Below are positions 2,911 through 39,473 of a DNA stretch of 39,473 nucleotides, in pieces. The first letter of the stretch is position 1; each line of letters opens with the position of its first letter. Source of the DNA: a virus; the IMG/VR virus record IMGVR_UViG_3300017757_000035, positions 1 through 39,473 of that record; one strand, given 5' to 3'. The position numbers and the translations under genes were made by a program. The notes under the pieces were generated by a model. That model had not been told where the DNA came from, did no database searches, and saw only the letters and a program-made list of their open reading frames with translations.

Positions 2911-3130
2911 AGAATTAATTAAAGTTGCTAGAGAAGAGATAGTTGATTCAGACGAAGATATATCAGCAGATAGATTAAAGAATGCAGCAGCTACAAAGAA
3001 ACTAGCTATATTCGATGCATTTGAAATATTAACCAGAATCCAAGAGGAAGAAGCTATGCTTGACGGAAAACCCGTAGAGGAGAAAAAGGAGAGCACTTTT
3101 AAGGGTTTCGCAGAAGGAAGATCTAAATAA
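2855..3130 (+). CDS. terS: Probable terminase small subunit
   Basis: A 91-residue, almost all-helical acidic protein directly before the large terminase gene, sharing one base with its ATG (TAATG). The core DISADRLKNAAATKKLAIFD followed by AFEILTRIQEEE fits the helical oligomerisation part of small terminase subunits in marine podoviruses. The small subunit binds phage DNA and controls the large-subunit motor. No clear helix-turn-helix can be assigned by eye, so the call depends mainly on position, size and helical character. The start lies 56 bases inside the preceding gene; a later start near the helix core would avoid much of the overlap but no other ATG is suitably placed. Confidence 0.6.
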   Translation: MNIKETKKNIIQAGHKAVEELIKVAREEIVDSDEDISADRLKNAAATKKLAIFDAFEILTRIQEEEAMLDGKPVEEKKESTFKGFAEGRSK

Positions 3131-8952: not shown

Positions 8953-10461
8953 ATGGCAATTAATCCCGGAGATAGTCTGAATAGTGTGCCTGCTCAAAGA
9001 CAGCAAGCATTACAATCAAACTATATCGATTTTACGAGTACAACTACAAGTGGTTGGGCTCAACAATACCTGCCTGACTTAATGGAAAAGGAAGCTGAAG
9101 TTTTCGGTCAACGAACGATCTCAGGTTTCTTGGAAAAAGTTGGAGCGGAAGAGGCTATGACTTCAGATCAAGTAATTTGGTCAGAACAAGGTAGACTACA
9201 CTTATCATACATATGTAAAGTGGCATCTGGTAAAATAGTAATACAAGGTGATATTGATAAAGCTAAGTTTAATGCTAGTGGTATACATACTGCTCAAACT
9301 GCTGGAATCCACCATCACGGTATTAGAGTTAATGATACAATAATTATCGCTAACGCTACTCAAGTTATTAGAGCTATGGTTACTGTTGTAGAGGCTTCCT
9401 CAGTTATTCAAGTAGTACCTTACAGTGGTACGTTAACTGACGATGCTACTACTCAAGCTAATGAATCAACAACTATATTAGTTTATGGTTCTGAGTACGG
9501 TAAAGCTACTAGATATGATGATGCTGATGGTACATTCAGTAACAACGATTCACGTGGAGCTAACGAACCTGACTTCAAAACGTTTTCTAATAAACCAATT
9601 ATCATGAAAGATTACTACGAAATATCTGGATCTGATACTGGTAGAATTGGATGGGTTGAAGTTACTGGTGAAGCTGGACAAAATGGTTACTACTGGTATC
9701 TAAAAGCTGAAGCTGATACAAGAGCTAGATTTAATGATTATTTAGAAATGGCAATGCTTGAATCAGAGAAAACAGCTTATGATGGTACTGGTACTACTGT
9801 TGACGCTCAAATAGGTCAAGAAGGTGGTGCTGTTGGAACTGAAGGTTTATTCGCTGCTATTGAAGAAAGAGGTAATGTTACTACTGGTGTATCTGGTATT
9901 AACGCTGCAACTGATTTAGCTGAGTTCGATGCTATACTAAAAGAATTTGACAAACAAGGTGCTATTGAAGAATACATGATGTTTGTTAACAGAGATGTTA
10001 GTTTAGCAATGGATGATATGTTAGCTTCAATGAATTCTTACGGAGCTGGAGGTACTTCTTATGGAGTATTCGACAACGACGAAGACATGGCGTTAAATTT
10101 AGGTTTCTCAGGATTCAGAAGAGGTTCTTATGACTTCTACAAATCTGACTTTAGATACTTGAATGACAAAGCTACAAGAGGAGGTATTAATACTGCTGCT
10201 GCGGCTGGAGCTGCAATCAGAGGTGTTATGATTCCTGCTGGTACTTCTACTGTGTACGATCAATCGTTAGGTAAAAACCTAAAACGACCATTCTTACACG
10301 TTAGATATAAAGCTTCTCCTACAGACAATAGAAAAATGAAAACTTGGACTACTGGTTCTGTTGGTGCTGCTACATCGGCGCTTGATGCAATGCAAATTCA
10401 CTTTTTATCAGAAAGATGTTTGATCACACAAGGTGCGAACAACTTTATGTTAATGAAGTAA
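8953..10461 (+). CDS. Major capsid protein
   Basis: A 502-residue protein expected to form the icosahedral shell. It follows the scaffold and is followed at once by a strong terminator, the usual setting of the most highly expressed phage gene. Motifs resembling marine podovirus capsid proteins include SGFLEKVGAEEAMTSDQVIW near the N-terminus, FSNKPIIMKDYYEISGSDTG (about residues 211-231) followed by RIGWVEVTGE, and RARFNDYLEMAMLESEKT, which looks like the long spine helix of an HK97-type fold. The N-terminus is short without an obvious delta domain, in line with a separate scaffold gene. The leader is A/T-only, ending ATATT before the ATG. Confidence 0.88.
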   Translation: MAINPGDSLNSVPAQRQQALQSNYIDFTSTTTSGWAQQYLPDLMEKEAEVFGQRTISGFLEKVGAEEAMTSDQVIWSEQGRLHLSYICKVASGKIVIQGDIDKAKFNASGIHTAQTAGIHHHGIRVNDTIIIANATQVIRAMVTVVEASSVIQVVPYSGTLTDDATTQANESTTILVYGSEYGKATRYDDADGTFSNNDSRGANEPDFKTFSNKPIIMKDYYEISGSDTGRIGWVEVTGEAGQNGYYWYLKAEADTRARFNDYLEMAMLESEKTAYDGTGTTVDAQIGQEGGAVGTEGLFAAIEERGNVTTGVSGINAATDLAEFDAILKEFDKQGAIEEYMMFVNRDVSLAMDDMLASMNSYGAGGTSYGVFDNDEDMALNLGFSGFRRGSYDFYKSDFRYLNDKATRGGINTAAAAGAAIRGVMIPAGTSTVYDQSLGKNLKRPFLHVRYKASPTDNRKMKTWTTGSVGAATSALDAMQIHFLSERCLITQGANNFMLMK

Positions 10462-23827: not shown

Positions 23828-25084
23828 ATGGGTTTTAAATTAAGGTCTGGTAATAGTAGTGGTTTTAAAATGATGGGTAGCTCAGCTAGTCCGTATAAAG
23901 AAGAGAAGGAAAATACAAAACCGGAGAAAACAGAAACTCCAAAACCGGAGAAAACAGAGACTCCAAAACCAGAGACTCCAAAAACAGAGACTCCAAAAAC
24001 AGATCCAGCTCCAAAGCCATCTCCACAACCGTCAGACGACCCGTCTATTGATCCAGATGACCCAATGGGTGGATTTGAACCTGGAGAAAATCTCAAGGGT
24101 AGTGGTTATGAGTATAATACTAATACCGGTGAAATAGTGAAAAGCGATTACACAGACGATTTAGATCCAGTGACAGAAGCAATACCTGAAGAGTCCGATT
24201 TTACTAGTGGAACAAGAGGCCACACAGGGAATGTTATTCAAAGAGATTACTACGAATCTGACGATCCTGAAAACAAAAGTGATTATTATATTGATAAATA
24301 CAATACCAGGGAGAGTATGAATGAAAGACAAGTAGCCGGTTATGGTGTTCCTTATGGCAGTGACCAGTTTAGCGACGTTAGACCATCACACACTGACCCA
24401 GATACTGGTGAGGTTGTTTTTATGGGAACAGATCAACAATATGGTGATGATATAGCTATACCTTATGGTGGTGTCACGGATTCAGATGCAGCTTCAATTG
24501 GTGTTTCAGAGGCTACAGGTGGAGATGATAAATGGGGAGGTAAAGAAAAACTTCAGAATTACGGAGATGGTCTTACAGAGGGTGCGATTGACAATATACA
24601 GGACACTGTAACAGGTAGGGATAAAGTAGAGGGAGAAATTATAGCTGGAGATGATCAAGGTAAAACAATGAAACTAGTTGAAGGTAGGGGAGGTAATTTG
24701 ATTTCTAAAAAGGTAATAAAAGACGGACCGCTTGGTTTAAAGAGAGAAAAGGAAGTTCATAAAAAAACAAACAAAGGTGGAGTTAGTTACAACTCTGAAA
24801 CTGGTGAACTAGAGTATAGTAAGGGGGCTGTTGTTTCTACAAGAAAAACTATTAATCCAGAAACTGGAAAAATGGAAAAAAAGAAATATATAAACGGTAG
24901 AGAGTTAACTCCGGAATATAAGGAACAAATTAAACAGGCTAAGAAAAACGCAAAGCAACAAAAGAAAAATAATAAAAAAGCATCAAAAGTTAAAAAGGAG
25001 CACGAGAAACGAAATAAAGCTCTTAGGTTCAACGAAGCTAGTGGTGAGTGGGAGAAGAATCCTAATTACGAACCAATGGTATAA
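23828..25084 (+). CDS. Disordered virion-type protein with FKLRS/SGFKMMGSS/ASPYK N-terminus (418 aa)
   Basis: A 418-residue hydrophilic protein. Residues 3-24 read FKLRSGNSSGFKMMGSSAS then PYK, an N-terminus almost repeated in the next gene's product. It is followed by a Pro/Glu/Thr/Lys repeat region (about 25-75) encoded by tandem DNA repeats, a Gly/Asp/Ser-rich central part with little predicted structure, and a very basic helix near the end (EQIKQAKKNAKQQKKNNKKA). No enzyme motif is visible. Its place before an S74-domain protein and the giant protein suggests an internal, ejected or tail-associated protein. Function unknown. Confidence 0.6.
   Translation: MGFKLRSGNSSGFKMMGSSASPYKEEKENTKPEKTETPKPEKTETPKPETPKTETPKTDPAPKPSPQPSDDPSIDPDDPMGGFEPGENLKGSGYEYNTNTGEIVKSDYTDDLDPVTEAIPEESDFTSGTRGHTGNVIQRDYYESDDPENKSDYYIDKYNTRESMNERQVAGYGVPYGSDQFSDVRPSHTDPDTGEVVFMGTDQQYGDDIAIPYGGVTDSDAASIGVSEATGGDDKWGGKEKLQNYGDGLTEGAIDNIQDTVTGRDKVEGEIIAGDDQGKTMKLVEGRGGNLISKKVIKDGPLGLKREKEVHKKTNKGGVSYNSETGELEYSKGAVVSTRKTINPETGKMEKKKYINGRELTPEYKEQIKQAKKNAKQQKKNNKKASKVKKEHEKRNKALRFNEASGEWEKNPNYEPMV
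23918..23995 (+). repeat. In-frame tandem repeat encoding P-E-K-T-E-T-P type units
   Basis: Two 24-base units (23918-23941 and 23942-23965, differing at one base in the direct reading) are followed by two 15-base shorter forms (23966-23980 and 23981-23995), all ending CTCCA. All units are multiples of 3, so the frame is kept and a charged, Pro-rich flexible linker is produced. Confidence 0.85.
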
Positions 25085-25102
25085 ATAATAAAAATTAAGA
25101 AA

Positions 25103-26521
25103 ATGTCAAAATTTAAACTAAGATCAGACGCAGCAAGCGGATTCAAAATGATGGGTTCGTCAAAACCAAAGAGTAGTGCATCGCCATATAATAAGGGTGT
25201 TAAAGACCCTTGGGGTGGTGATCATGAGGTGAAAGCTAAATCAGCTGCCGAAAGTTCTCCTAACAAAAGTGTAACCGCGGATAGAATTAATGAACTAAAA
25301 AGAAAAGGGCTTTATAAAGAAGGAACATCTTCCGATCCATATTATTCTAAAAACATGCGGTTTCATAATATGAGAAATCAAACTGAGGCTCCTAAAGACG
25401 CTGATTGGAATGATCCTCTTTTATACCAGGATTGGAATCAAGATCAATATGATATAGAAAATCCAGCTGACTTTATTAAAGATGGTCATAGAAGATTTAA
25501 TTTTGATAAAAATAAAAAAGGTAAATTAACAGCTAAAGGCAGAAAACAGAAAAGAGAACATGAAGCTTATTTAAATAGATTAGCTATGGATCCTTCTCAT
25601 AGTGACTTAAAGCGTGATAGAAGCAAACCGCAACTTCAAGCACATCAAAGAAAACAGGGTATGTCGCAGGTTCAAGATCCATATGGAAATTGGCACGTTG
25701 TTAATAGACATGGTAACTTAGTTGGTAATAGTCATAATTACTCTCCTGAAAGTAAAGCTTGGAGAAGAAAAGAAAGTTTAAATCCAGATTACGATCCAAA
25801 TGCCACTACTAACTTTAATGAAGATGGAACAATCTCGTTTGACCCAAATACTTTAGATTATAACGAGACTACTGAGGAAACAAACATTATAGATGATACT
25901 CCAGAAATAGTAAAAAATCAAAAAAAGAACGTTCAAAATGCAACGGTAACAACCGAGGAAGATGGTAGTACAACTGTTACAGATAACGATACTGGTGAGG
26001 TTGTTCAAGATAGTTTTAATCCGGTTGAAGAAAACAAAATAGAAGAAGAGATTGTGGGTGAGCCAGAGGAAAGTGCAAGCTTTGGAGATGCATTCCAAGC
26101 TGCTAGAGAACGTGGTGATAAAACATTTGAATTCGACGGTAAATCATATCACAGTAGACAAGCTGATGAATCACCTGAAGAGTGGTCGTCTAACATGGAG
26201 GCTATAAATCCTGATGACACTAGTATGCCAGAAGGAGCTCTCAAAGGTGATCAACCAGGGTTAGGTGATGGTTCTACTAATTTTGAGGATAGAGCTTATT
26301 TAGAAAAAAGAATTCAAAGTGGTGAAGCGACTGACGAAGAGAAAAGTAAATACGTTGACACTTACTCTGAGAATCACCTAGGTATTACAAAAGATGGTGT
26401 TACTGAGGGAACTGAATTTGAAAGCGTAGAGAAAGAAGTGGAGAAAGAAGTAGAACAAGAAGAGGCTAGTAATGAAGTTGAAAAAGAAGTTGAAAAAGAA
26501 GTTGAAAAAGAAGATGAATAA
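25103..26521 (+). CDS. Disordered virion-type protein, N-terminal paralogue of the preceding gene product (472 aa)
   Basis: A 472-residue hydrophilic protein. Its N-terminus FKLRSDAASGFKMMGSS (residues 4-20) followed by KPKSSASPYNKG closely repeats the previous gene's N-terminus, while the rest is unrelated in sequence. The middle is rich in Asp, Asn, Lys and Tyr with little visible structure; the end is a Val-Glu-Lys-Glu repeat helix (about 442-472). DNA identity between the two N-termini is low at third positions, so this is an old duplication or a maintained functional signal, not a recent copy. Probably a virion or ejected protein; enzymatic role not visible. Confidence 0.6.
   Translation: MSKFKLRSDAASGFKMMGSSKPKSSASPYNKGVKDPWGGDHEVKAKSAAESSPNKSVTADRINELKRKGLYKEGTSSDPYYSKNMRFHNMRNQTEAPKDADWNDPLLYQDWNQDQYDIENPADFIKDGHRRFNFDKNKKGKLTAKGRKQKREHEAYLNRLAMDPSHSDLKRDRSKPQLQAHQRKQGMSQVQDPYGNWHVVNRHGNLVGNSHNYSPESKAWRRKESLNPDYDPNATTNFNEDGTISFDPNTLDYNETTEETNIIDDTPEIVKNQKKNVQNATVTTEEDGSTTVTDNDTGEVVQDSFNPVEENKIEEEIVGEPEESASFGDAFQAARERGDKTFEFDGKSYHSRQADESPEEWSSNMEAINPDDTSMPEGALKGDQPGLGDGSTNFEDRAYLEKRIQSGEATDEEKSKYVDTYSENHLGITKDGVTEGTEFESVEKEVEKEVEQEEASNEVEKEVEKEVEKEDE
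26426..26518 (+). repeat. In-frame repeat encoding V-E-K-E units
   Basis: Repeated 12-base units of the form GAAGTTGAAAAA run up to the stop codon of the 472-residue gene, interrupted once by a short EEASN segment. The product is a strongly charged helix, likely a single helix or coiled coil. The units near the 3' end are nearly identical, so recent slippage expansion is likely. Confidence 0.75.
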
Positions 26522-26543
26522 TTTTAATTTAATATAATATAAT

Positions 26544-27512
26544 ATGAGTTTTCCAAGTACACAATCCGGTGGTAAAGCTTCTCCAAATAAAATTTGGGGA
26601 GCATTAGCGTCTACAGCAGTAGGTGCTATAGGTCTTATTGGCGCTGGTAAAAGAAAAAAAGCTGCGGAAGCTAAAGAGCAAGCTGCTAGAGACCAAATGG
26701 CATTGGATAAAAAAGCCTACATGGAGGCTGACTTATCCAATCCTTATGCTAATTTAGAAAATCAATTTGCTGGTATGAAAAACCAATATGCTGGTTTAGA
26801 AAACACAATGGAAGACTTAACAGTTAATCAACAGCAAGCTCAATTTGAAGCTCAACAGTTTCAACAGTCTCAAGCTAATATAATGGACACTATGGCTGCT
26901 TCAGCTGGCGGTTCTGGTATAGCATCAACTGTTCAAGCGTTAGCTCAACAAGGTCAATTACAAGCTCAACAATCTTCAGCTTCTATAGGAGCACAAGAAG
27001 CTCAAAACCAAATGGCCGCAGCTCAACAAGCTGGAAGCCTTCAGCAACTAGAAGCGCAGGGTGCGGCTGAGGTTGATCAAATGGCCAGACAAGGTCAAGC
27101 TAGTATTGATGCTAAAATTGCAGAGGGAGAATCAATATCTCAAGCTAGAGAGTTAGATAGACATGCTACGGTATTAGGTATGTCGCAACAAGAAACAGCA
27201 GCATACCAACAACAAGCTGCTCAGGCCGGTGCTGAAAAAACTGATGCTCTAGGAAAAACAATTAGTGGTATAGGTAGTCTTGTAGCTGGTTTCTCAGACA
27301 GAAGACTTAAGAAGAATATAAAGCATATAGGTAGTTCACCAAGAGGTATTAAGATGTATACATTTGAATATATTAACGATAAGTTAGGAAAAGGAATATA
27401 TCAAGGTGTTATGTCAGATGAAATTCCAAAAGAAGCAATCATTAAACATAGTAGCGGTTATGACATGGTAGACTACTCTAAGTTAGATGTTGAATTTAAA
27501 AATATAATTTAA
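26544..27512 (+). CDS. gp14-like internal virion protein fused to an S74-type intramolecular chaperone domain
   Basis: A 322-residue protein. Residues 11-16 read KASPNK, then 17-35 form a Gly/Ala-rich membrane helix (IWGALASTAVGAIGLIGAGK). About 40-245 is a long Gln/Ala-rich helical region (QQQAQFEAQQFQQSQ), the build of T7 gp14-like internal proteins that form the ejection channel in the outer membrane. From residue 250 the chain is SDRRLKKNIKHIG, FEYIND, GVMSDEIP and a final YDMVDYSKLDVEF, the short Peptidase S74 / intramolecular chaperone domain; the S-D-x-x-L-K signature contains the usual Ser and Lys. S74 domains normally sit on fibres and spikes, so this pairing is notable. Leader A/T-only. 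Confidence 0.72.
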   Translation: MSFPSTQSGGKASPNKIWGALASTAVGAIGLIGAGKRKKAAEAKEQAARDQMALDKKAYMEADLSNPYANLENQFAGMKNQYAGLENTMEDLTVNQQQAQFEAQQFQQSQANIMDTMAASAGGSGIASTVQALAQQGQLQAQQSSASIGAQEAQNQMAAAQQAGSLQQLEAQGAAEVDQMARQGQASIDAKIAEGESISQARELDRHATVLGMSQQETAAYQQQAAQAGAEKTDALGKTISGIGSLVAGFSDRRLKKNIKHIGSSPRGIKMYTFEYINDKLGKGIYQGVMSDEIPKEAIIKHSSGYDMVDYSKLDVEFKNII

Positions 27513-27513
27513 T

Positions 27514-28899
27514 ATGTCAAAATCATCACCATTAAAAGGAGCAGATCCAGTTTTAGCTAGAGGAGCTTACGATGCTGCCGGTAACCAAGTATATCAAGGT
27601 TGGATACACAAGCAACACCAAAGCTTAATGGCTATAGCTGATGAGTTAAAATCATGGGACGTCGGTTCTGGTGCTCAAAGAATAATAGACAGCGGTGGAG
27701 CTCTACCAACTAGTGAAATTGGTGGTATGAGAGATCAAGCTGGTATAGGTAAACAAAAGTACCTAGATGGTAACTCTAGGCAAAAAGAAGAAGAAATGGC
27801 TCAGCTTCAAAAAATGAAGCAACAATCAGATCAATACGCTCAATGGAGACTAGGTTTGTCCACTGATTACATAAACGGGAATCTTAGTGAGGGTTTCTTG
27901 AGAACACAACAAGGTAAAGATGTTTTAGAAATACTAAAAGATAAAAAACGTTTAACTAAAAAGAAATGCCCAGACGGCACTGATGATTGTGAAAACAAAG
28001 GTGACTTCGGCATTATGATGACTGACTACACTGCAATAAATAATGCAAGAACAGAGTTGAACCAAGCTCAAGCTAAACTAAAAAACTTAGAAAACTTAGA
28101 TGATAAAGGTTTACTATATACTCAAGATCACTATGATGAAATGGGTAAACTGCAATCTAAGATTGATGAGATGAATACCTTTATAAAATCTAATCCACAA
28201 AAATGGAACTCACTACAGCAGGTTAATAGCATGGTGAAAATGGTTGATGCAACAGCTAAGAAAAATCTTGAAGACGCTAGAAGTGCTATATATAATAAAG
28301 CTAAAAACTCATTGCCAGAAGAAACTCCTGGTGAATTTGATTTTGAGAAAGCATCTGATATAGTTAATGGGTCTGTTTTAGCTAGCGGAGAGTATCAATC
28401 TCTAGTATACGATGAGATAATTCCACTTAGAACTTTTCATGGTGATTTAAAAGAAGCTATAGGTGGTTTCAATGAGGGTAGAAGAACATACGCTGACCTA
28501 GGTGTAACAGAAGAAATGATATTACAGGGAGACTTGAACCTAGATGGTGAGTTGAGTGATGATGAAATAGAGAATATAGCTCAAGCTGTTATATCAAATG
28601 AAGAGTTGGGTAAAAAAGAAATGTCAGAGTGGATGGTTCAATACTTGCATAACCAGCACCAAAAGGGTTTAAAAGACAAAAGAGGTTCTGTTATTGAAGA
28701 TGAAGACACAGAGACTACTAGCGAGGTAGTTAATAATGCATTTGATAAAAATGGTAATTATATACCTCAATCACAAAGGAGCGAAAATCAAGATGAATCT
28801 CAATCACAGAAAACTCAAGAGACAAAAGAGGAAATAACAGAGATTAGAGAAAACGAAAACGAAGACAAAGACGAAGACGAGGACGAGGACGAAGCATAA
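27514..28899 (+). CDS. Helical internal-type protein with SSPLKG start and EF-hand-like loop (461 aa)
   Basis: A 461-residue mostly helical protein. The N-terminus MSKSSPLKGADPVLARGAYD shares the S-P-x-K signature of the three upstream proteins. Residues about 170-265 form a likely coiled coil (ARTELNQAQAKLKNLENL). Residues 340-351 (D-L-N-L-D-G-E-L-S-D-D-E) satisfy all positions of an EF-hand calcium loop, D1, N3, D5, G6, L8, E12. The end is a strongly acidic tail (NENEDKDEDEDEDEA). Starting one base after the previous gene's stop and lying before the giant protein, it probably belongs to the same internal/ejection set, in the place of T7 gp15-like proteins; that role is inference. Confidence 0.6.
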   Translation: MSKSSPLKGADPVLARGAYDAAGNQVYQGWIHKQHQSLMAIADELKSWDVGSGAQRIIDSGGALPTSEIGGMRDQAGIGKQKYLDGNSRQKEEEMAQLQKMKQQSDQYAQWRLGLSTDYINGNLSEGFLRTQQGKDVLEILKDKKRLTKKKCPDGTDDCENKGDFGIMMTDYTAINNARTELNQAQAKLKNLENLDDKGLLYTQDHYDEMGKLQSKIDEMNTFIKSNPQKWNSLQQVNSMVKMVDATAKKNLEDARSAIYNKAKNSLPEETPGEFDFEKASDIVNGSVLASGEYQSLVYDEIIPLRTFHGDLKEAIGGFNEGRRTYADLGVTEEMILQGDLNLDGELSDDEIENIAQAVISNEELGKKEMSEWMVQYLHNQHQKGLKDKRGSVIEDEDTETTSEVVNNAFDKNGNYIPQSQRSENQDESQSQKTQETKEEITEIRENENEDKDEDEDEDEA

Positions 28900-28935: not shown

Positions 28936-31900
28936 ATGGCAAAAGAATATTATATAGACGGTGAACTATACACTGTCGAAGAAGAAAATGAAAATGAGTT
29001 TTTGGAAGAATTTCCAGATGCAAAACCTAAAGAAAAGGAAGTAAAAAAATACAATGTCGATGGAGAAGAAAGATCTGTCGACATTAATAGTATAGAGGAA
29101 TTTGAATCAGAATTCCCAGATGCAACCCCATTAACGGGAAAGTCAAACAGCTCTGTGAAGAGTGCGAACACAGAGCAACCCACCGTAGCACAAAATCTGT
29201 ACGACGATACGGAATTCAAATCGGAAAGTATTTTATCGGAATCACAACTAAATAATCAACAAGACTTTAATAAGACTTTTGGGCCAATGCCTGAGATAAC
29301 TACTGATATAACTCATCAGCCAGAAGAATTTGCTATAAAAGATCTTAGAGACAAGTGGATGGAGTATGGTTTTACATTTGAACAAAAAACCATAGGTATG
29401 GATAGGATAGAGGTTACAGCCTTAAATGGTGAATCCAAGATATTCAACATAGGTATGTCTACAACGAATCATGAAAGGGCAGCTAAAGAGATGAATGATT
29501 GGATGAAGAAAAACGCTGATCACCAAGGTGATAAGTTGGAGGCGTTTTTATCACACGTTAGTGTCAATCAAGATCAAGTTAATGAAATAAAGCCTAATCA
29601 AAGTTTAGCTCAAAAACAAATAGATGAACTTAGAGAAGCTTGGGGATTAGATGGTCATTCTGATGCAGCTGTATTAAAAGAGTATGATAAGTTTATAACA
29701 GCTCAATCAGCAAATAAAAGTATGTCTTATGATATTAAAGATCCTAATTATGCTAATTGGAAACTAAGTGATGCTTACAAAAATTATACAGATAAAAAAT
29801 CTAAATTAGAAGGTACAACTCTTGAAAAAGATTTTAGAAAAAATAGAACAAACCTTGACGTAATTATCAATGGTAAAGAGGGTTACAGGAAAGAAGAAGC
29901 TTTAAAAAAGTATCAAACACAAACTGGAGTTAAGTTAGATGGAATGTATGATGAAGATGGTGGGTTAACCAAGAAAGGTATAGATATATTAAATAGTAAA
30001 GAGTATAAAAACATATATAACGCTTTAAAGGTAGATAAGGATAAAGAGCAGGAATATGTAGATAACTTCTTCGAGCAAGATCAAATGAACAAGTATCTCG
30101 AGGAAAATCTTAAAGAACAAATTGAAAAATTTAGCAACAACCCATTTGTAAAATCTGATACACAGAAAGAATTAATTGAACTAGCTGTTGACAAGAGAGA
30201 AGCTATGAGTAAGCAGAACACTAAGAAAGTCAACGAGTTTAATGTTGTTTATGGTGATTTGGAAAATATATATAATGAGATAGGTGGTAATGCTGATTGG
30301 TTAAACTCAATAGGTGACGGAACAAAGAAGCTAGAAGAATTAAAAAGCAAGTATGACTTAACCACACAAGAAGGGGTTGATGGTTATAACGCTGAGGTGA
30401 AGCAATTTAGAGCTACATACCAAGAGAAATTAGATAGATTTAATTTCTTACAAAAAAAGAGAGGTCAATATGAAAAGTTTGCTAATAAAATAGGTAAACA
30501 ACTAGACAACACTAACTTGACAGATAGTGATATGAAAACCGTTATAGGTGCCTTGAAAAGAAACTATCAACAAGGAACTGTTATGGCTGGCCAGTTTACT
30601 AATGCTGTTATAGACCTTGGTCAAGGTATAGCTGAAGCTGGAGATTGGCTTTTATCTATGCCTAGAGAAGTGTTAAAAGCTATTGACAATCCAGGTGTTG
30701 AAGCTTATAGTAAGGCTAGTAAAACTGTTAACACTGAGAACAAGACTAGAAAATGGGATGAGTGGAATGATTGGTTAGATAATTGGCAGCAAGAAAAAAT
30801 TAATGATAGAATAGAGAAGCCAACTAGATTTGAGGATATAAATTCTTTAAGTGATATTGGTGAGTGGAGTTCTGGTGTTATAGCTTCTCAAATACCTATA
30901 CTAGCAACTATGTGGGCAACTGGTGGTTATTCGCTTTGGATAATGGGTGCTAGCAGTACTGGTTCTAAATGGAGGCAACTAAATGATGCTAAAGATGAGT
31001 ATGAAAGAACGGGTGGTTTATATGGAAACAACCACTCTTGGGGGTCAATGTTTACAAACGCTTTATTCACTGGTACAACAGAGGCTTTATCTGAGAAAAT
31101 TACGCTTGGGCAAATGAACAAGTTTAAAGGTATATTAAAAAACTCTAAGGCAGCTAAACTTGGTTGGGAAAGACATTTGAAGCAAAATGTATTCACATGG
31201 AATAATGCTAAAGCTGGTGCTAAAGATGTTTTTGAAGAAGGCTTCTCAGAGTCCGTAGCTCAAGTATCTAGTAATTTTGCTGATGTATTATCCGGTGTTG
31301 AAGACGCTAACGTATGGGATGGTGTTGCAGAGTCTTTTGTAAGTGGTATGCTTATTTCTCAAGGCATGAAGGTTCCTTCTTTGGGTAGAGCTATGTCCGC
31401 TCCATTTAGATCAAAGGATACAAACGAGAAAACGGGGGAGATAACATCAAAAATAGAAGACCTATCTAAGAGAGCTAGCAAACTCCCTAAAGAATCTAAA
31501 GAAAGACTAGCTATAGAAGAGGAGATAGTTGGTTTAACAAAAGAGGCTAATGACTTAATAGAGCAAGATATAAAAAGAGTTGGTTTATTAAAAGACCACG
31601 AGAAAAAAGCTTTAGTAAATATAGAAAAGCAAAACTACAACGCTAGAAAGAGAGCTGAAGAGATTATGCTGGATAGCAAACTGTCTGATAAAGAAAAGTT
31701 TGATCAAATAAAAAAGCTTAACGAAAAGGTCTCTATGAGACAGGTTACAAAACAAAACATACTATCTCAATACGGAGTTAACGTCATAAACTCTAATTAC
31801 GCTAGAGAAATGGATACCATGAAAAGGCAAACTGAACTAGCTAACAAACAAGGAGGCGTGCAAACAGTAATAGAGGAAGTTGGACAAGATGAGTTTACTG

Positions 31901-34900
31901 ATATAAATACAAAGGAACTTGGAGACAAATCTAAAGCTCAAGTTGATGATTACTTAATGGAGAGGCAAGCTGAAATAGAGGCTTTAAGAGATGTTTTAAA
32001 AGATAAAAATGCTAGCAAAGAAGCTAAATCAGATGCTCAACAAAAACTAGCTGAAGCTAAAAAACAAGAGGGCACAGCCAAGTCTTTGTTAGCTGAGGGT
32101 AACGACTATGGTGTTATGATACCTGTTTTTGATAAGAACAGAAATCTGGTTAGCATGAGGGTAGTTGTCAATAAAGACTTAGCTTTAACAGACGGAAAAC
32201 TTAATACTGGTGCACATGAGTTTCTTCATGCTGCTATGCGGATGACAATGAAGGGTGATCCTAGGATGAGGAAGGTTATGGGGAAAAAGATGCAAGAAAT
32301 AATAGATAGTGGTAAGATGACATTTAAGGGTGATGCTAGGATTGAATATGAGGCTAGAATGAAAATGTATAGAGAAAGTCAGAAAGGTGAAGAGTCTTTT
32401 ACTATATTATCGGAAATGATGAGAGACGGTAAGGTTCAAATAAATGAATCTACAACTAATAAGTTTAAAGACTTTTTTAGAAGGTGGAGTAAAAATTATA
32501 CTAAAAGAGACATAGAGTTTAATGAAACTCAAGATGTTTTAAATTTCATAAAAGACTTTGATTACAACTTAAAGAACAATATAGTTAGTCCAGCTTTAGC
32601 GAGGATGATGGCTCATGGTGCTAAAGGTGAAATGTTTAAAGGAGCTAAGGAAACTAAAGAAAGAGAGGCTATGAAGTCTTTTGATCACGCGGTTGATTTA
32701 AACAGACGTGGTAATCCTGATTTAAAAAGAGAGTTTGATCAATTTATATTAAATGAAGATGGTACACCAAAATACGTTAATCATGAAGAGTTTAAAAATT
32801 CGCCAGATTATGGTGGAGCTATGTTGCATTTATTAGAGGGTAGAGCTCACGATGGTTTGATAATGCAAGGAGCTTCTGATTCAGGTGTTCAACCAGAGAG
32901 AATGAGGGAGTTTGTTAGGAATGTTAAAGAGGAGCTAGCGAGAATGTATTCAGGCGGGTTGAATAAAAAATCAACTGAAAAAATAGCTGAGATAGAAGAG
33001 TTAATAAAGAAAAAAGAAATATTAATTAAAGATGGTGTAGATCAAATTGAGAAAATAAAAAATAATAAAAGTAACTATTTAAGAGAGTTTAACTACGATG
33101 CTGTTGGAGACGGGAAAGTTAGTTTGTTTGGTTGGTTAACTGGTACATATAGAGCTATATGGATAGCTAAAGAGAATGTAAAAAAACAATGGGTTAAAGA
33201 TCAACCTGGTTTTGGAGGTCCGTCTTTAGACAAGCAGATATCAACAAAAGAAGGAACATCAACGCTTAAAGATGTTATTGGTGGAGAGGGTGATTCAGCT
33301 TTTGATGCCATAGACAATATGGACTTGTCTTTTGGTAGAAAAAACGCTGCCAAGGAAATATTGATAAATGAAATAATAATAAGTGATGCTCTAAACTTCA
33401 CTCCAGATGTAATGAATAGTATTACCAATACTATTAAAAGCGCTAGTATAGATATAGGTGCTTTGATTAAAACTGATGGACCATATAAGGGCATAAAAAG
33501 ATTATTAGATGATGTAACTAAGTTTACAAAAATAGATAAAAAAACTGGTAAACCACAAGTTTATAAAACAGGTAAAAACAAAGGGGAGGTTAAGTTATTC
33601 CCCCCAACATCAGAAAAGAAAACAGAACCAATAGGACCTTTGTTTGAAATACTAAATGCAGTGTCAACTGAGTTTGGTGTTGATCCACTTAGAATACTAT
33701 CTACTCAAGATTTAGACGGGGATCAAAGACGGGCAGCGCAAGCTTACATATTAGACAAATCAATAAATGAAGATGGTAGCTTCGATGACACATTATTTAA
33801 GATGTTACCAGAGGGTGAAGATAAAAGTGGTTGGGCAACAGGCGTAGCTAACACAAATCTAGGTGACTTTTACATAAAAGGAGATAGAGTTAAAGTTGGA
33901 GATGGTGCCGACAAAAAGGGTGGGCAAAAGTATGCTCAAGAAAAAAGAAGTAACATAGGTAAAGACGAGTTCCTAAGTATGTTTGGAATAAACCCTAATG
34001 GCAGTTTCCGATCGGGAACTGACGCTGATGGAAGTATACGTGAATTAGTCAAGCAAATAGCCGTTATATCAGCTAATCAAATGATGAGAATAGACGCTGT
34101 TACTAACGGTACGGCAACAGAAGCGGTGGCCGCTAAGTTAGCTGACGGAAAATCTGAAGCAGTATTTAGTAAAAAACTTGATCCTAGAAATATAGATGTA
34201 TACGAGGATTTATGGTCAGAAGCGATTGGTACTTTACACCACGTTAATATGGATGATTTAGAGTCTATAGAGTCTCACCTGTCCAGTATATATGGAGACA
34301 TGCTCTCAAGAAGAGAAATAAATGGCATAGCTCAGGATTGGTACGATTGGAAGAAAGAGTTTGATGAATTAGAGTCTACTAAAAATAGAGATAGTATAGT
34401 CGATGCTTATGATATTCAAACTTTTATAATAGGGAAAACAGAGAGAACACTATTAGAAAGTGGATTGTTAAACACTTATAGAAACAAGTTTGTCACTGAT
34501 ACTCGTAGTGTTAGTGAACTTTTCTTAGACCCAGAGAGAGTTAATAAAAGAAGAGGAGATGTTATTAAGCTTGTTAACAAGTGGAGAGCAGAGGGTAAGA
34601 GTGTGGATGAAATATTGAGATCCTTATATTTTGCTAGAGGCATGTATTCATCAGCTAATAAAGCTGGTGACGGTAGATTAGTGTTATGTAAAAGTAGTTG
34701 GTGCACAGAGGGGACACTAGTTTTAGATCCTAAATGGGAAGATAAATTAGATGAAGAGGGTAACATAATTGAATACGGTAGCAAGTGGAGAAGGTATAAT
34801 AGTAGAAGCAAGGCCGTAAAGGAGGGTAAGGCGAAAGTTGGTGATGTTATAATTAGAAATGGTAAACCCGTACCAGAGGTTAATAGAGGTCAAGTTTTTG

Positions 34901-37900
34901 TTAACACTCAAGATCTTATAAATACAATATCTCAAGCTGAAGGTTTTGAAGATATAAAAAACAAAACATGGACAGAGATAAAAAATGAAAAAGGTTTAAA
35001 CCTAAGCATGTTTCAAGAGAAATCTAAGAATGCTATAGAGGATCAAGATTATGATGGTAGATTAGCTCAAGCTAAAGAAAACAGAAGTATAGTTGAGGAC
35101 TTAGTTAAAATGTATGCTCAAGGTATATATGAGGGTACGCACCAATACGAGGATATAGTTATGTTGGGTAGAATGCTAGGTTCAAACATGGATTCACCTA
35201 TGAAGAGAGCAGCTAACCTAGCGTACATAGGTGTTGGGGTTGGAAATGTAAAAAACCCAGGTACAGACCTGGAGTATGAACACATGAAGCCTACGAACAA
35301 AAAGATAATGGAAACAATTGAGGCTCTGTTAAACGATCCATCTGGTTTACCTAGTGATCACTGGGATGATTACCAGGTAGCTATCATTCCTAAAGATATG
35401 GACAAAGTTTTAATAGCTGCTGGATTAAGAGACTTTATGCAACTAGGATATAAACGTGGAATGGAAGTTTGGAGAAGGTATTTTAATCCTCAAACATGGG
35501 GTAGACCAGGTATGGTGCCTATAAGAAACATACAAACAGGAGAGGTTATAGGAGGAGAGTTTGTTAAGATGGGGGATAAGGTTGTTAAGCGTGAAAAACA
35601 AAACGTTATACAAGAGGCTAACGTGTTTTCAGAATCTATGAAGAGTAAAAAAATACCTGAAATAAAAGGCATGTCTGCTTTTGATTTTGATGAAACGTTA
35701 ATAATAGATGGTAAAAACGTTATTGAGGCCACTAACCCTAAAACCGGAGAGAGAGAAACTATAAGCTCTGAGGATTGGCCAACTAGAGGCACCGAGTTGA
35801 TGGAGCAGGGTTGGGAATTTGACTTTAGTGATTTCATAAATGTAAAAGGTGGAACCAAGGGTCCATTGTTTCAGAAATTAAAAAACAGAATACAAAAGTT
35901 TGGTTCTAAAAATAATTTTATATTAACAGCTAGACCTCAAGAATCAGCCGCTGCTATACACGGTTGGTTAATGGCTAACGGAATATACCTTCCACCAGAA
36001 AATATAACTGGACTAGGTCAAAGTTCTGGAGACGCGAAAGCTATGTGGATTTTAGATAAATTCAAAGAGGGTTATAATGATGTTTATTTCGTTGATGATG
36101 CTCTTCCAAATGTCGATGCTGTTAAGCACGTGATGGAGCAATTGGATATGAAAGGTAGTTCTGTTCAAGCTGTTCTAGATATTAAAGGTAAAACACTATT
36201 ACCAGAGGTAGTTGCCGATGAATTCACTAAAGCGGCTAATAACGCTAGAAAACAAATAGATATAATAGAAAAAGATCTAAAGAAGAAGGGATATGAAATA
36301 ATTGGAACTGTTAGATCTAGTGAGTTCAGAAGAGTTGGTGGTTTAAAAATAGACCTAACAACAAAGGAGGGTAGAGAGATATCTAAAGAATTAGATAATA
36401 TCAAAACAGTTAGCTCTAGCGAGTTTAAGTCTAAGAATAACGAAAGCATGAAGAGTAGAGTTGTTGACACACACAACGCTATTAATGAGGAGTTTAATGA
36501 TATGTTAGAGAGAGCTTCTGGTATAGATTCTAAAAGAGTTATAACAGCAGATGAGGCTAAGAAATCTAAAGGAGATCTAAGTATTTTTCAAAAATTCTTT
36601 GTACCACCGTCAGCTGAGGATTTTAAAGGTTTACTATATAACTTTTTAGGCAAAGGAAAACGTGGAGATAAGGACTTTGGGTTTTTTAAAAAATATCTTC
36701 TAGAACCATTTGCAAATGGTGTTAGAGATTATAATGCTTTTAGACAGAACATGGCTAATGATTATGCGGCTTTAAAAAAGAGTATGCCTAATACTACTAA
36801 GAGTTTTGATAACAAAATAGGTGATTCGGTTTTTACAAACGAGGACGCTATAAGGGTTTATCTATGGAACAAAGCTGGTCACACTATGCCTGGTTTGTCT
36901 GAAACTCAGATTGAGATGTTGATTAACCACGTTAATAGCAATTCTGATTTAATGGGTTTTGCTGAGGGACTAAGTAGAATAACAAAAGGTTATGGAGAAC
37001 CAGATCTAAACTGGGCTGTAACTAGTATAGCTGGGGATTTAAAGTCTATAGCTAACAGTGGTAGAACTAAATTTCTAGCCGATTGGATAGCAAACAAAGA
37101 CATTGTATTTTCAAAAGACAACTTAAATAAAATAGAGTCTATATATGGAGCTCCCACTAGAGAAGCCTTAGAGGATATAATGTATAGAATGGAAACTGGT
37201 AGTAATAGACCTACTGGCCAAAATAGAATTGTAAATAAATTTTTGAACTGGATAAATGGTTCTGTTGGAGCTGTCATGTTCTTTAATACCAGATCAGCTT
37301 TACTACAAACAATATCTACGGTTAACTTTATAAACTGGGAAGACAATAATATATTTAAAGCCGCTGCAGCGTTTGCTAATCAGCCTCAGTTCTGGAGCGA
37401 TTTTGCTATGATATTTAACTCAGACATGTTGAAGCAAAGGAGGTCTGGTCTGCAGATAGACGTTAACTATAATGAGTTATCTGAAGCGTACAAGGGTGGT
37501 AGAAGTAAACCAGAGGCTGTTATTAGATTTTTGTTGGAGAAAGGATTCTTACCAACTCAGATAGCTGATAGTTTTGCTATAGCTATGGGTGGTGCAAGTT
37601 TTTATAGAAACAGATTAAAGAGTTTAATAAAACAAGGTATGCACCCAGAACAAGCTGCACAGCAAGCTTGGAAAGATTTTCAAGAAATAGCAGAAGAAAC
37701 ACAACAGTCTTCTAGACCTGATTTAATATCACAGCAACAAGCTGGTGTTTTAGGTAGGTTGATTTTAGCTTGGCAAAATACTCCAATGCAGATGACGCGT
37801 TTAACTAAAAAAGCTCTTTCTGATCTTGTTAATGGTAGGGGTAGCTTTAAAGCTAATGTATCTAGGATAATGTACTATGGTCTTATACAGAATATAATAT

Positions 37901-38787
37901 TTGGTGTACTACAAACTGGTTTAGCTTTCTTGATGTTTGGTGGAGATGATGAAGAAGAAGAAAAGAAAAAGAAAACTGAAAGAGTTTTAAATGGAGCGTT
38001 TGATACTTTATTAAGAGGTACTGGTGTTTGGGGTGCAGCTGTGTCAACACTTAAAAACACTATAATGAAATTCTATGAACAAAGAGAAAAGGGTTGGAAC
38101 GCTGATCAGACGTATACAATTATTGAAGCTATAAATCTATCACCACCTCTTGGTAGTAAGTTTAGGAAGATATATAACGCTATTCAAACGGACAAATTTA
38201 ATAGAGGTGTTGGTGAAAAATTAAAATACAGAATTGAAAACCCTACTTTAAGTATTGTTGGTAATGTCGTTGAAGCGTTAACAAACCTCCCAATGGCTAG
38301 ACTAATTAACAAAGCTAACAACATAGAAGAAGCGGTAACAGGTAATCATGAGTTATGGCAAAGAATGGCAATGTTAGGTGGTTGGAATAGATGGAGTGTT
38401 GGTGCTGAAGATGAAGAGTTGGAAGCAGCTAAGAAGGAGGTTAAAGATGAAAAGAAAGAAAAAAAGAAAATTGAAAAGGAAAATAAGAAAATAGAAGACA
38501 AAAAGAAAAAAGACAAAGAAAAGAAAGATGACGAAGAGAAGAAAAAGAAAGATGGTATAAAAACCGTTAGGTGTTCTGGTGTTAACTCATCTGGTAAAAG
38601 ATGTGGTATGACAACCGAAACAAAAGCTAAAAGTTGGAAGTGCGTACATCACATGGAATTTAAAGATGGGATGGATAGAGATAATGATGGATTAAAAGAA
38701 TATAGGTGTACAGCTACAACCTCATCTGGCAAGAGATGTAAGAATAAGACGGAGAATAAAAACAAGAAATGTTATGCTCACCAATAA
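28936..38787 (+). CDS. Giant polyvalent-type virion protein: repeats, membrane segments, HExxH zincin, HAD phosphatase, two zinc modules
   Basis: A 3283-residue chain using a quarter of the window. Order: two N-terminal repeats (residues 5-31 and 39-65); helical region to about 540; hydrophobic segments near 550-575, 645-675 and about 800; coiled coils about 830-1060; a zincin motif HEFLH at 1094-1098 with a possible third ligand at E1152 or E1153; a HAD phosphatase (FDFDETL with D2250, D2252, T2254; ILTAR 2329-2333; VDD with D2387, D2388); a conserved-looking region 2500-2970 ending in NTPMQMTRLTKKAL; a membrane helix 2980-3004; a Lys/Glu linker 3166-3208; and two Cys/His modules. It fits the polyvalent-protein class, large phage proteins carrying effectors injected with DNA. 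No RNA polymerase or lysozyme motif was found. Confidence 0.8.
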   Translation: MAKEYYIDGELYTVEEENENEFLEEFPDAKPKEKEVKKYNVDGEERSVDINSIEEFESEFPDATPLTGKSNSSVKSANTEQPTVAQNLYDDTEFKSESILSESQLNNQQDFNKTFGPMPEITTDITHQPEEFAIKDLRDKWMEYGFTFEQKTIGMDRIEVTALNGESKIFNIGMSTTNHERAAKEMNDWMKKNADHQGDKLEAFLSHVSVNQDQVNEIKPNQSLAQKQIDELREAWGLDGHSDAAVLKEYDKFITAQSANKSMSYDIKDPNYANWKLSDAYKNYTDKKSKLEGTTLEKDFRKNRTNLDVIINGKEGYRKEEALKKYQTQTGVKLDGMYDEDGGLTKKGIDILNSKEYKNIYNALKVDKDKEQEYVDNFFEQDQMNKYLEENLKEQIEKFSNNPFVKSDTQKELIELAVDKREAMSKQNTKKVNEFNVVYGDLENIYNEIGGNADWLNSIGDGTKKLEELKSKYDLTTQEGVDGYNAEVKQFRATYQEKLDRFNFLQKKRGQYEKFANKIGKQLDNTNLTDSDMKTVIGALKRNYQQGTVMAGQFTNAVIDLGQGIAEAGDWLLSMPREVLKAIDNPGVEAYSKASKTVNTENKTRKWDEWNDWLDNWQQEKINDRIEKPTRFEDINSLSDIGEWSSGVIASQIPILATMWATGGYSLWIMGASSTGSKWRQLNDAKDEYERTGGLYGNNHSWGSMFTNALFTGTTEALSEKITLGQMNKFKGILKNSKAAKLGWERHLKQNVFTWNNAKAGAKDVFEEGFSESVAQVSSNFADVLSGVEDANVWDGVAESFVSGMLISQGMKVPSLGRAMSAPFRSKDTNEKTGEITSKIEDLSKRASKLPKESKERLAIEEEIVGLTKEANDLIEQDIKRVGLLKDHEKKALVNIEKQNYNARKRAEEIMLDSKLSDKEKFDQIKKLNEKVSMRQVTKQNILSQYGVNVINSNYAREMDTMKRQTELANKQGGVQTVIEEVGQDEFTDINTKELGDKSKAQVDDYLMERQAEIEALRDVLKDKNASKEAKSDAQQKLAEAKKQEGTAKSLLAEGNDYGVMIPVFDKNRNLVSMRVVVNKDLALTDGKLNTGAHEFLHAAMRMTMKGDPRMRKVMGKKMQEIIDSGKMTFKGDARIEYEARMKMYRESQKGEESFTILSEMMRDGKVQINESTTNKFKDFFRRWSKNYTKRDIEFNETQDVLNFIKDFDYNLKNNIVSPALARMMAHGAKGEMFKGAKETKEREAMKSFDHAVDLNRRGNPDLKREFDQFILNEDGTPKYVNHEEFKNSPDYGGAMLHLLEGRAHDGLIMQGASDSGVQPERMREFVRNVKEELARMYSGGLNKKSTEKIAEIEELIKKKEILIKDGVDQIEKIKNNKSNYLREFNYDAVGDGKVSLFGWLTGTYRAIWIAKENVKKQWVKDQPGFGGPSLDKQISTKEGTSTLKDVIGGEGDSAFDAIDNMDLSFGRKNAAKEILINEIIISDALNFTPDVMNSITNTIKSASIDIGALIKTDGPYKGIKRLLDDVTKFTKIDKKTGKPQVYKTGKNKGEVKLFPPTSEKKTEPIGPLFEILNAVSTEFGVDPLRILSTQDLDGDQRRAAQAYILDKSINEDGSFDDTLFKMLPEGEDKSGWATGVANTNLGDFYIKGDRVKVGDGADKKGGQKYAQEKRSNIGKDEFLSMFGINPNGSFRSGTDADGSIRELVKQIAVISANQMMRIDAVTNGTATEAVAAKLADGKSEAVFSKKLDPRNIDVYEDLWSEAIGTLHHVNMDDLESIESHLSSIYGDMLSRREINGIAQDWYDWKKEFDELESTKNRDSIVDAYDIQTFIIGKTERTLLESGLLNTYRNKFVTDTRSVSELFLDPERVNKRRGDVIKLVNKWRAEGKSVDEILRSLYFARGMYSSANKAGDGRLVLCKSSWCTEGTLVLDPKWEDKLDEEGNIIEYGSKWRRYNSRSKAVKEGKAKVGDVIIRNGKPVPEVNRGQVFVNTQDLINTISQAEGFEDIKNKTWTEIKNEKGLNLSMFQEKSKNAIEDQDYDGRLAQAKENRSIVEDLVKMYAQGIYEGTHQYEDIVMLGRMLGSNMDSPMKRAANLAYIGVGVGNVKNPGTDLEYEHMKPTNKKIMETIEALLNDPSGLPSDHWDDYQVAIIPKDMDKVLIAAGLRDFMQLGYKRGMEVWRRYFNPQTWGRPGMVPIRNIQTGEVIGGEFVKMGDKVVKREKQNVIQEANVFSESMKSKKIPEIKGMSAFDFDETLIIDGKNVIEATNPKTGERETISSEDWPTRGTELMEQGWEFDFSDFINVKGGTKGPLFQKLKNRIQKFGSKNNFILTARPQESAAAIHGWLMANGIYLPPENITGLGQSSGDAKAMWILDKFKEGYNDVYFVDDALPNVDAVKHVMEQLDMKGSSVQAVLDIKGKTLLPEVVADEFTKAANNARKQIDIIEKDLKKKGYEIIGTVRSSEFRRVGGLKIDLTTKEGREISKELDNIKTVSSSEFKSKNNESMKSRVVDTHNAINEEFNDMLERASGIDSKRVITADEAKKSKGDLSIFQKFFVPPSAEDFKGLLYNFLGKGKRGDKDFGFFKKYLLEPFANGVRDYNAFRQNMANDYAALKKSMPNTTKSFDNKIGDSVFTNEDAIRVYLWNKAGHTMPGLSETQIEMLINHVNSNSDLMGFAEGLSRITKGYGEPDLNWAVTSIAGDLKSIANSGRTKFLADWIANKDIVFSKDNLNKIESIYGAPTREALEDIMYRMETGSNRPTGQNRIVNKFLNWINGSVGAVMFFNTRSALLQTISTVNFINWEDNNIFKAAAAFANQPQFWSDFAMIFNSDMLKQRRSGLQIDVNYNELSEAYKGGRSKPEAVIRFLLEKGFLPTQIADSFAIAMGGASFYRNRLKSLIKQGMHPEQAAQQAWKDFQEIAEETQQSSRPDLISQQQAGVLGRLILAWQNTPMQMTRLTKKALSDLVNGRGSFKANVSRIMYYGLIQNIIFGVLQTGLAFLMFGGDDEEEEKKKKTERVLNGAFDTLLRGTGVWGAAVSTLKNTIMKFYEQREKGWNADQTYTIIEAINLSPPLGSKFRKIYNAIQTDKFNRGVGEKLKYRIENPTLSIVGNVVEALTNLPMARLINKANNIEEAVTGNHELWQRMAMLGGWNRWSVGAEDEELEAAKKEVKDEKKEKKKIEKENKKIEDKKKKDKEKKDDEEKKKKDGIKTVRCSGVNSSGKRCGMTTETKAKSWKCVHHMEFKDGMDRDNDGLKEYRCTATTSSGKRCKNKTENKNKKCYAHQ
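28948..29130 (+). repeat. Two 34-residue-period repeats at the N-terminus of the giant protein
   Basis: Residues 5-31 (start YYIDGELYTVEEE, end EFLEEFPDAKP) and 39-65 (start YNVDGEERSVD, end EFESEFPDATP) align as Y-x-(I/V)-D-G-E ... V ... E-F-x-x-E-F-P-D-A-x-P. I recognise this kind of repeat from N-termini of other large marine phage virion proteins; its function is not known to me. A capsid- or portal-docking signal is a possible role. Confidence 0.75.
38572..38781 (+). repeat. Tandem C-C-C-H zinc-binding modules at the C-terminus of the giant protein
   Basis: Module 1: C3213, S-S-G-K-R-C3223, C3236, H3239. Module 2: C3258, S-S-G-K-R-C3268, C3279, H3282. Both follow C-x9-C-x(10-12)-C-x2-H with the core SSGKRC, and are separated by a DRDNDG linker. 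The pattern matches small viral zinc modules of the 'C-x3-T-x2-G-x2-C ... C-x2-H' type seen in phage and large-virus proteins. They probably bind zinc and perhaps nucleic acid. Confidence 0.7.
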
Positions 38788-38817
38788 ATGTGTAATAATA
38801 TATAAAAGAAGTAAACT

Positions 38818-38997
38818 ATGATAAATTGGATTAATTCCTGGAAATCGGGAAATAAAAAAGATAGATACGAACTAGCATTAAGAATAAGTACTTTGACGGT
38901 ATTTGAATTAATGTTTTGTCCGTGTTGGAGATGTGAGAACAGGGGTGTATGCCCAAGGTTTAGATTTATGATTCTAAATTTTGGATTTGAAATATAA
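38818..38997 (+). CDS. Cys-rich mini-protein (59 aa)
   Basis: A 59-codon open frame from ATG 38818 to TAA 38995-38997, ending two bases before the fibre gene's ATG. The product starts MINWINSWKSGNKKDRYELA, has a hydrophobic helix-like middle (LRISTLTVFELM) and a cluster C-P-C-W-R-C-E-N-R-G-V-C-P with four Cys, then FRFMILNFGFEI. The four Cys could bind one metal ion. Tight spacing to both neighbours (30 bases after the giant gene) supports it as a real gene. No family recognised. Confidence 0.55.
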   Translation: MINWINSWKSGNKKDRYELALRISTLTVFELMFCPCWRCENRGVCPRFRFMILNFGFEI

Positions 38998-38999
38998 AA

Positions 39000-39473
39000 A
39001 TGAAATGGATAGGCCAGCATATTTGGGATTTTATATCTAGGTTTCGTAATGATGTTTACTTAGAGGATTTAACTACTACATCGGAGTCAAGTGTCCTAGT
39101 TGTTGATTCAAATGGTAAGGTAAGTAAAAACACCTCTGTTGGTGGTACCACAACATTTACTTTAACCGCTGATGGTGGTAGTGATCAGACTATAAGTAAT
39201 GGCGAAACACTAACGATTACTGGTGGGAATGCTATATCAACTACAGTTAGTGCTACTGACAGGGTCACTGTGAATCATGAGGACACATCATCAGCAACAA
39301 GTGTAAATAATTCTGGTGAGACTTGGGTGCAGGACCTAACAATAGATACTTATGGCCACGTAACAGGAATAACCTCAACTGCTAGTGCTAACAGGTACTA
39401 TAAAACCGTAACATCCACACTTACATCAGCAGATGTATATAGTCTTAACTCTGGCTCTGGTTATGTTATTGTA
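39000..39473 (+). CDS. Tail fibre protein, 5' part (runs off the window)
   Basis: The frame opens at ATG 39000 and stays open for all 158 codons to the window end. The first residues MKWIGQHIWDFISRF followed by RNDVYLEDL match the conserved start of fibre proteins in marine phages I recognise, probably the part attaching the fibre to the tail. Then comes a Thr/Ser/Gly-rich beta region (SSVLVVDSNGKVSKNTSVGG) and DLTIDTYGHVTGITS, a strand pattern typical of trimeric fibre shafts. The distal receptor-binding end is outside the window. Confidence 0.75.
   Translation, partial: MKWIGQHIWDFISRFRNDVYLEDLTTTSESSVLVVDSNGKVSKNTSVGGTTTFTLTADGGSDQTISNGETLTITGGNAISTTVSATDRVTVNHEDTSSATSVNNSGETWVQDLTIDTYGHVTGITSTASANRYYKTVTSTLTSADVYSLNSGSGYVIV

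Follow-up and report, generated by a model that had tools for sequence, protein, structure and literature searches.

An N-terminal peptide shared by unrelated late proteins in a clade of marine short-tailed phages, with a possible role in loading the phage head

The window considered here is the whole of a 39.5 kb record (39,473 nucleotides) from IMG/VR, in which a TerL gene, called by position, is followed by genes for a portal, a putative scaffold and a coat protein, by a gene of tail-hub size, by four consecutive genes sharing an N-terminal signature, referred to below as the tag, and by a gene encoding a giant protein of 3283 residues. The features that concern us are the following:

5361..7748, + strand: portal protein (PHROG 6547, E 7e-139), which marks the tag-carrying phage clade
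7775..8932, + strand: putative scaffold, between portal and coat
8953..10461, + strand: major coat protein candidate, untagged (PHROG 13704, virion structural protein)
23828..25084, + strand: tagged late gene, 418 aa orphan; the tag, residues 1-24, is MGFKLRSGNSSGFKMMGSSASPYK
25103..26521, + strand: tagged late gene, 472 aa; the tag, residues 1-31, is MSKFKLRSDAASGFKMMGSSKPKSSASPYNK
26544..27512, + strand: gp14-like internal or ejection protein, 322 aa; residues 1-16, MSFPSTQSGGKASPNK, precede a hydrophobic helix
27514..28899, + strand: gp15-like protein, assigned by position, 461 aa; the tag, residues 1-9, is MSKSSPLKG
28936..38787, + strand: giant gp16-like protein, assigned by position, 3283 aa, untagged in the window

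The window ends shortly after the giant gene (38788-39473) and a longer, near-identical contig, G001, continues beyond this point. The portal of the window is 26-51% identical to the portals of several cultured phages, namely Maribacter phage Panino, Flavobacterium elemo phages, Cellulophaga phi38:1, phi19:3 and phi46:3, and Tenacibaculum Gundel_1, and the tag-carrying clade consists of marine short-tailed phages; the hosts of its cultured relatives are Bacteroidota.

A first-pass annotation of the window had reported that four consecutive genes share a short N-terminal signature of the form S/A-S-P-x-K, that the remainders of the four proteins are unrelated, that the first two share a longer start and that the shared residues are encoded by different codons, and all of these observations were borne out. 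The four N-termini read as described, with [SA]SP-x-K in the first 8-31 residues of these late gene products, no pair of bodies yielded a BLAST match better than E ~0.1, and the likeness between the first two proteins is confined to their first 26 residues; with the bodies unrelated, recent duplication is ruled out as the source of the shared starts. When residues 1-35 encoded by each of the 23 genes in the window were shuffled 20,000 times, no shuffle produced a run of four tagged genes, or even four genes anywhere with [SA]SPx(0-2)K (mean 0.14 genes), and beyond residue 40 of the window proteins a single instance of the motif was found in 11,789 residues.

The signature consists of two elements, FK[ML][KR] and SP-x-K, which may be separate signals. 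Genes 23828 and 25103 encode long low-complexity proteins, each starting with two FK elements and one SP-x-K element, and the second carries a further SSPNK at residue 51, behind the tag. The products of genes 26544 and 27514 carry the SP-x-K element only. A relative of the 23828 protein is encoded at 31029 in G003 and starts with MARKKFNLRSGNKSSFKLMGHRQSPLAK. Although the signature was correctly located in the four genes of the window, it is not limited to them, since it recurs among relatives and G001 carries six more tagged genes (42019-45989) past the right edge of the window.

Relatives were gathered both via the ejection protein and via the portal, and the majority of the longer contigs was read from end to end. 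Many of their short late genes open with a fuller form of the tag, MAFKMKG, MGFKLGS or MAFKMRGF followed by SP[LFM]xK (also SP[LFMA]xK), and six such tagged genes lie inside 2907-5493 of G002. The consensus is M-A-F-K-[ML]-[KR], in many cases with S-P-x-K behind it or, more broadly, M-x-F-K-[ML]-[KR]-G with S-[PA]-hydrophobic-x-[KQ] frequent within 40 residues. A DNA pattern for MAFKMKG was found in at least 120 stretches of IMG/VR, compared with 12 for the scrambled control MAKFMKG. The portal family of the window was present in 42 of the 45 tagged contigs searched, and the other three may be fragments or unrelated. From 149 tagged starts that were read, supplemented with contig ORFs, 277 unique tagged proteins were obtained, yielding 252 bodies in 120 homology clusters with 89 singletons, the number of clusters being approximate because low-complexity basic proteins may be clustered incompletely. 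Some tagged proteins (G051 47921, G052 3215, L188 and similar) contain long runs of SAMKMKKEAAMKMKK repeats that look like a multiplied K-hydrophobic-K element. Prophages did not lead to the identity of a host, none of the 27 MAFKMKG matches in genome_contigs being a recognisable tagged phage gene, and among the papers searched none contained FKMKG or MAFKMKG and none described the tag.

The distribution of the FK element was examined in 49 contigs, some of which had been selected for tag presence. Within residues 1-40, FK[ML][KR] is present in 85 of 1417 late proteins and in 2 of 384 early ones, against a shuffle mean of 2.3 and a count of 2 for the swapped KF[ML][KR]; at residues 41-80 it was found twice among 1287 proteins, and in the last 40 residues once. 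The 26 contigs that were fetched by portal alone gave 15 late and no early occurrences. In 76 of 92 late occurrences the element begins inside the first 10 residues, and S[PA]-hydrophobic-x-[KQ] stands behind MAFKMKG in 69 of 141 cases, where shuffling gives a mean of 4.5 and the reversed order 8. The early-arm, middle and C-terminal controls, together with the scrambled motifs, rule out a general property of late genes or of all proteins and, as judged from these sequences, the tag is a real, peptide-level, N-terminal and clade-specific feature that is essentially confined to the late arm.

The view of the first-pass annotation that selection acts on the peptide, and that the shared starts do not reflect recent duplication, has been strengthened. 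AFKMKG is written by 37 different DNA encodings with a nearly even Gly wobble, and the codons differ even within one contig; because the codons vary, it is the peptide that is under selection, and a DNA-level signal is ruled out by this diversity. Some bias exists in that Ala codon 2 is preferentially GCA or GCG and the tag is A/T-rich.

Peptide-level selection is also apparent in a tagged HExxH family with few characterised relatives, which occurs in 25 of the 50 contigs searched (loci include L115:2930-3694 and L112:4315-4683, alignment A1) and was not found in the other 25, many of them fragments. A profile built from the body alone found 25 members, of which 24 carry the tag, and M1, F3 and K4 are no less invariant than H58, E59, H62 and E113, the residues of the HExxH motif and the late glutamate, with MAFK retained across the family at 36% identity. 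The fold of this peptidase is predicted confidently, with residues 1-11, the tag, disordered. Structure matches in BFVD named SprT-like phage proteins (best E 7e-4), and a PDB fold search gave no significant match, only weak zinc-peptidase resemblances. We consider this SprT-like family a candidate injected metallopeptidase.

Other carriers of the tag are the gp14-like proteins, a few gp15-like proteins, some giants, small DUF6321 proteins and accessory proteins, while the large late families with neither element are the portal, coat and head-completion proteins and GroEL and GroES, the phages encoding these chaperonins in their late arm. In this survey a loose tag pattern gave false positives on TerL (MYKQ...) that were absent under strict F-K-[ML]. 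Tagged bodies are very basic, with a net charge of +7.1 per 100 aa compared with -3.1 for other late proteins, and they are poorer in hydrophobics; the tag regions themselves are basic, with a median of +4 in 40 residues.

Among the ejection genes the tag is distributed unevenly. The 26544 protein matches PHROG 6121 (E 4e-15) and 4287 (E 2e-13), annotated as virion structural protein or DNA ejection protein, and its family profile aligns with homologues from the structural modules of cultured phages (hhalign 96.9%, E 1.6e-10). Because this match starts at column 23 here and at residue 5 there, the tag appears to be an added N-terminal extension. The gp14-like protein is tagged in 16 of 45 genomes, or in 18 of 45 under the wider motif definition used for the tree, and, mapped on the portal tree, its tag state must have switched at least 8-11 times, a pattern indicating that the tag on the ejection protein is repeatedly gained or lost. 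The cultured relatives examined showed no tag in the ~42 kb read of each, and no cultured tagged phage was found among the relatives. Since most relatives, and all the cultured ones examined, carry a homologue without the tag, it is optional on the ejection protein, and a virion-only rule was not upheld for the core ejection genes. Relatives lacking the motif, which had been named beforehand as evidence against the proposed tag, do exist for the ejection-protein homologue, and this objection holds in part. Homologues of the 27514 protein are tagged in G003 and untagged in G002, and no direct match of the gp15-like protein to cultured phages was obtained. Tagged homologues of the giant protein were found in two relatives, G052 (MRKPSPLK) and G071 (MKKPSPF). 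As most gp14-like, gp15-like and giant proteins of the relatives are untagged, ejection proteins can be loaded without the tag, which counts against the head-loading reading given below.

At its other end, the 26544 protein is Peptidase_S74-like, with a weak Pfam S74 match. Residues 251-314 form a truncated C-terminus of this kind (SDRRLKKNI), on an ejection protein and not a tail fibre, and such ends also occur at ejection or structural genes of Vibrio, Microcystis, Rhizobium and other phages.

The product of gene 7775 shows scaffold-type features in its position between portal and coat and in its helical core and disordered ends, as seen in a structure model of modest confidence; the N-terminus is acidic and the C-tail ends with DFKFKINKKK. 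In cultured phages the annotation of its homologues goes no further than structural protein. The last residues of the scaffolds read FKFKIKKK or SFKIRKKN, with the same hydrophobic-lysine alternation as the tag, and phi-K-phi-K lies near the C-terminus of 48 of 50 scaffolds and of 7 other late ORFs, although the 48 are not independent because all belong to one family. This likeness between scaffold and tag spans four residues in a lysine-rich proteome. Three scaffolds (G036, G042 and elemo) carry an N-terminal FK[ML]. In P22 and herpesviruses it is established that the scaffold binds coat through its C-terminal end, and the coat-binding domain of P22 is a helix-turn-helix (PMC12005531). The likeness to P22 lies in the gene order portal-scaffold-coat, whereas the coat-binding part would here be a disordered FKFKIKKK tail. 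That a cargo tag might use the site of the scaffold tail is something that we infer from the four residues.

The reading that we favour, rating its chances somewhat above even, is that the tag constitutes an N-terminal capsid-targeting, or cargo-loading, signal for the assembling phage head. Late proteins would carry at their N-terminus a disordered tail of positive charge, which would bind inside the growing procapsid, most plausibly where the scaffold's own FKFKIKKK C-tail binds, and the tagged protein would be enclosed in the head and later leave with the DNA. This head-loading reading is based on the occurrence of the tag in the late arm only, on its association with ejection proteins and small basic proteins, on its absence from shell, packaging and chaperone proteins and on the likeness to the scaffold tail. 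The first-pass annotation had already suggested a packaging or ejection tag, and these results support the direction of that suggestion, whereas packaging itself, together with the presence of the tagged proteins in the virion, their binding partner and their entry into the host, is what we infer. Two of the 69 members of the hub-sized cluster start with SP-x-K (G038 17354 and G052 25539), and these count against head loading. So do genes 26544 and 27514 if, as could be the case, their SP-x-K element is a separate signal, and the basic bodies are compatible with DNA binding as much as with loading into the head.

A precedent exists in T4, where internal proteins IPI-IPIII carry a capsid-targeting sequence (Mullaney and Black), of which ten residues suffice, and which is removed by gp21 (PMC9026906). 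The T4 internal proteins are basic and poor in hydrophobics, like the tagged bodies described here, and their targeting sequence is thought to allow loading of varied cargo (PMC9026906). Common to both is a short N-terminal segment on divergent basic proteins, internal in T4 and putatively so here, within one phage lineage, but the tag differs in sequence, is followed by no clearly enriched gp21-type site, occurs on apparently many more unrelated bodies and has a putative role in packaging. In P1 the N-terminal 30 residues of DarB suffice for loading a reporter into the head, and no consensus is seen among the Dar N-termini (PMC9024508), whereas here there is one on more than 100 bodies. Encapsulin cargo-loading peptides are similar in being short linear motifs that load unrelated cargo into an HK97-fold shell. 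They are usually C-terminal and on dedicated enzyme cargo, whereas the tag is N-terminal and in a phage. Finally, the three genes 26544, 27514 and 28936 resemble T7 gp14, gp15 and gp16 in being of rising size, the last giant, and the product of the first has its matches in PHROG ejection and virion families, although all but the first are assigned here by position. We know of no T7 counterpart of the tag extension.

The strongest rival to head loading is DNA binding, in which the tag would be a nucleic-acid binding tail tethering late accessory proteins to replicating or packaged DNA, with a passive presence in the head. The basic charge of tag regions and bodies would fit such a role, as would the resemblance of SP-x-K to SPKK, the S/T-P-K-K motif being a feature of H1 histones. 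However, the x position favours L, F, M and Y over K or R, the FK[ML]K order is fixed (2 for the KF control versus 85) whereas DNA tails tolerate scrambling, and early DNA-handling proteins are essentially untagged, and we judge this explanation rather improbable. A little less probable again is that the tag docks accessory proteins on the phage GroEL/GroES or on the giant ejection protein, loading into the virion being indirect or absent. The late-arm chaperonins could provide such a dock, and short hydrophobic-basic strands would be plausible chaperonin ligands, but coat and portal, which are known chaperonin clients, are untagged, and the retention of MAFK by an enzyme that is small and folded does not reflect a folding requirement.

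The processing site that the first-pass annotation had offered as an alternative has lost ground. A maturation-protease site removed from internal proteins would have a parallel in the T4 capsid-targeting sequences cut by gp21 (PMC9026906), and many members of the clade encode the tagged SprT-like peptidase, though it was not found in half of the contigs, many of them fragments. Motif counts behind the tag gave no clear support for cleavage relative to shuffles, with [LIFM]xE slightly above the shuffle mean but inside its range, in 38 of 76 cases against a mean of 28 (range to 41), and with [SA]xE and A[SG] not enriched, and we regard such a site as distinctly unlikely. Least credible of all, to the point of near dismissal, is that the shared start reflects a feature of the DNA or RNA, such as an early coding region that enhances translation, or a cassette for recombination at gene starts. 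The bias at Ala codon 2 and the A/T-richness of the tag would agree with it, but the many encodings do not, the highly expressed coat is without the tag, the position of SP-x-K floats, and MAFK is kept throughout the divergent enzyme family.

If head loading is correct, a further step, which we put forward tentatively and consider doubtful, is that the tag mimics the coat-binding tail of the scaffold and serves as a lineage-wide transferable code for an open-ended, fast-changing set of injected proteins. New genes would then become virion cargo by acquiring a tag of ~8-30 residues, and the cargo would include basic proteins, the SprT-like metallopeptidase and ejection proteins. Injected phage proteins are usually identified by proteomics only, and the phage capsid-targeting signals defined so far are, to our knowledge, very few (T4, P1). 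A true signal would make the packaged or injected proteins of a whole marine phage clade readable from sequence, commonly with ~2-13 candidates per long contig, most of them without a known domain and a metallopeptidase among them. Moreover, a new capsid platform could adopt such a peptide, ready made, for loading, and whether the loading of cargo imitates the binding of scaffold to coat could be cleanly tested.

Two minor observations concern gene 25103-26521. Its counterpart in the near-identical contig (G001 25803-27284) carries an extra copy of an SPxxKGVKDPWGGDHEVK segment, which indicates that the SP-x-K region varies by short tandem duplication. At residues ~326-356 the protein also contains a short module, SFGDAFQAARERGDKTFEFDGKSY, that is shared with tagged proteins of G003 and G050. 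The same module occurs in Rhizobium phage RHEph01, where connector and capsid-assembly genes flank it, in a MedDCM phage, where it adjoins TerL, and in a microvirus, and it is a phage module of wide distribution with no assigned role.
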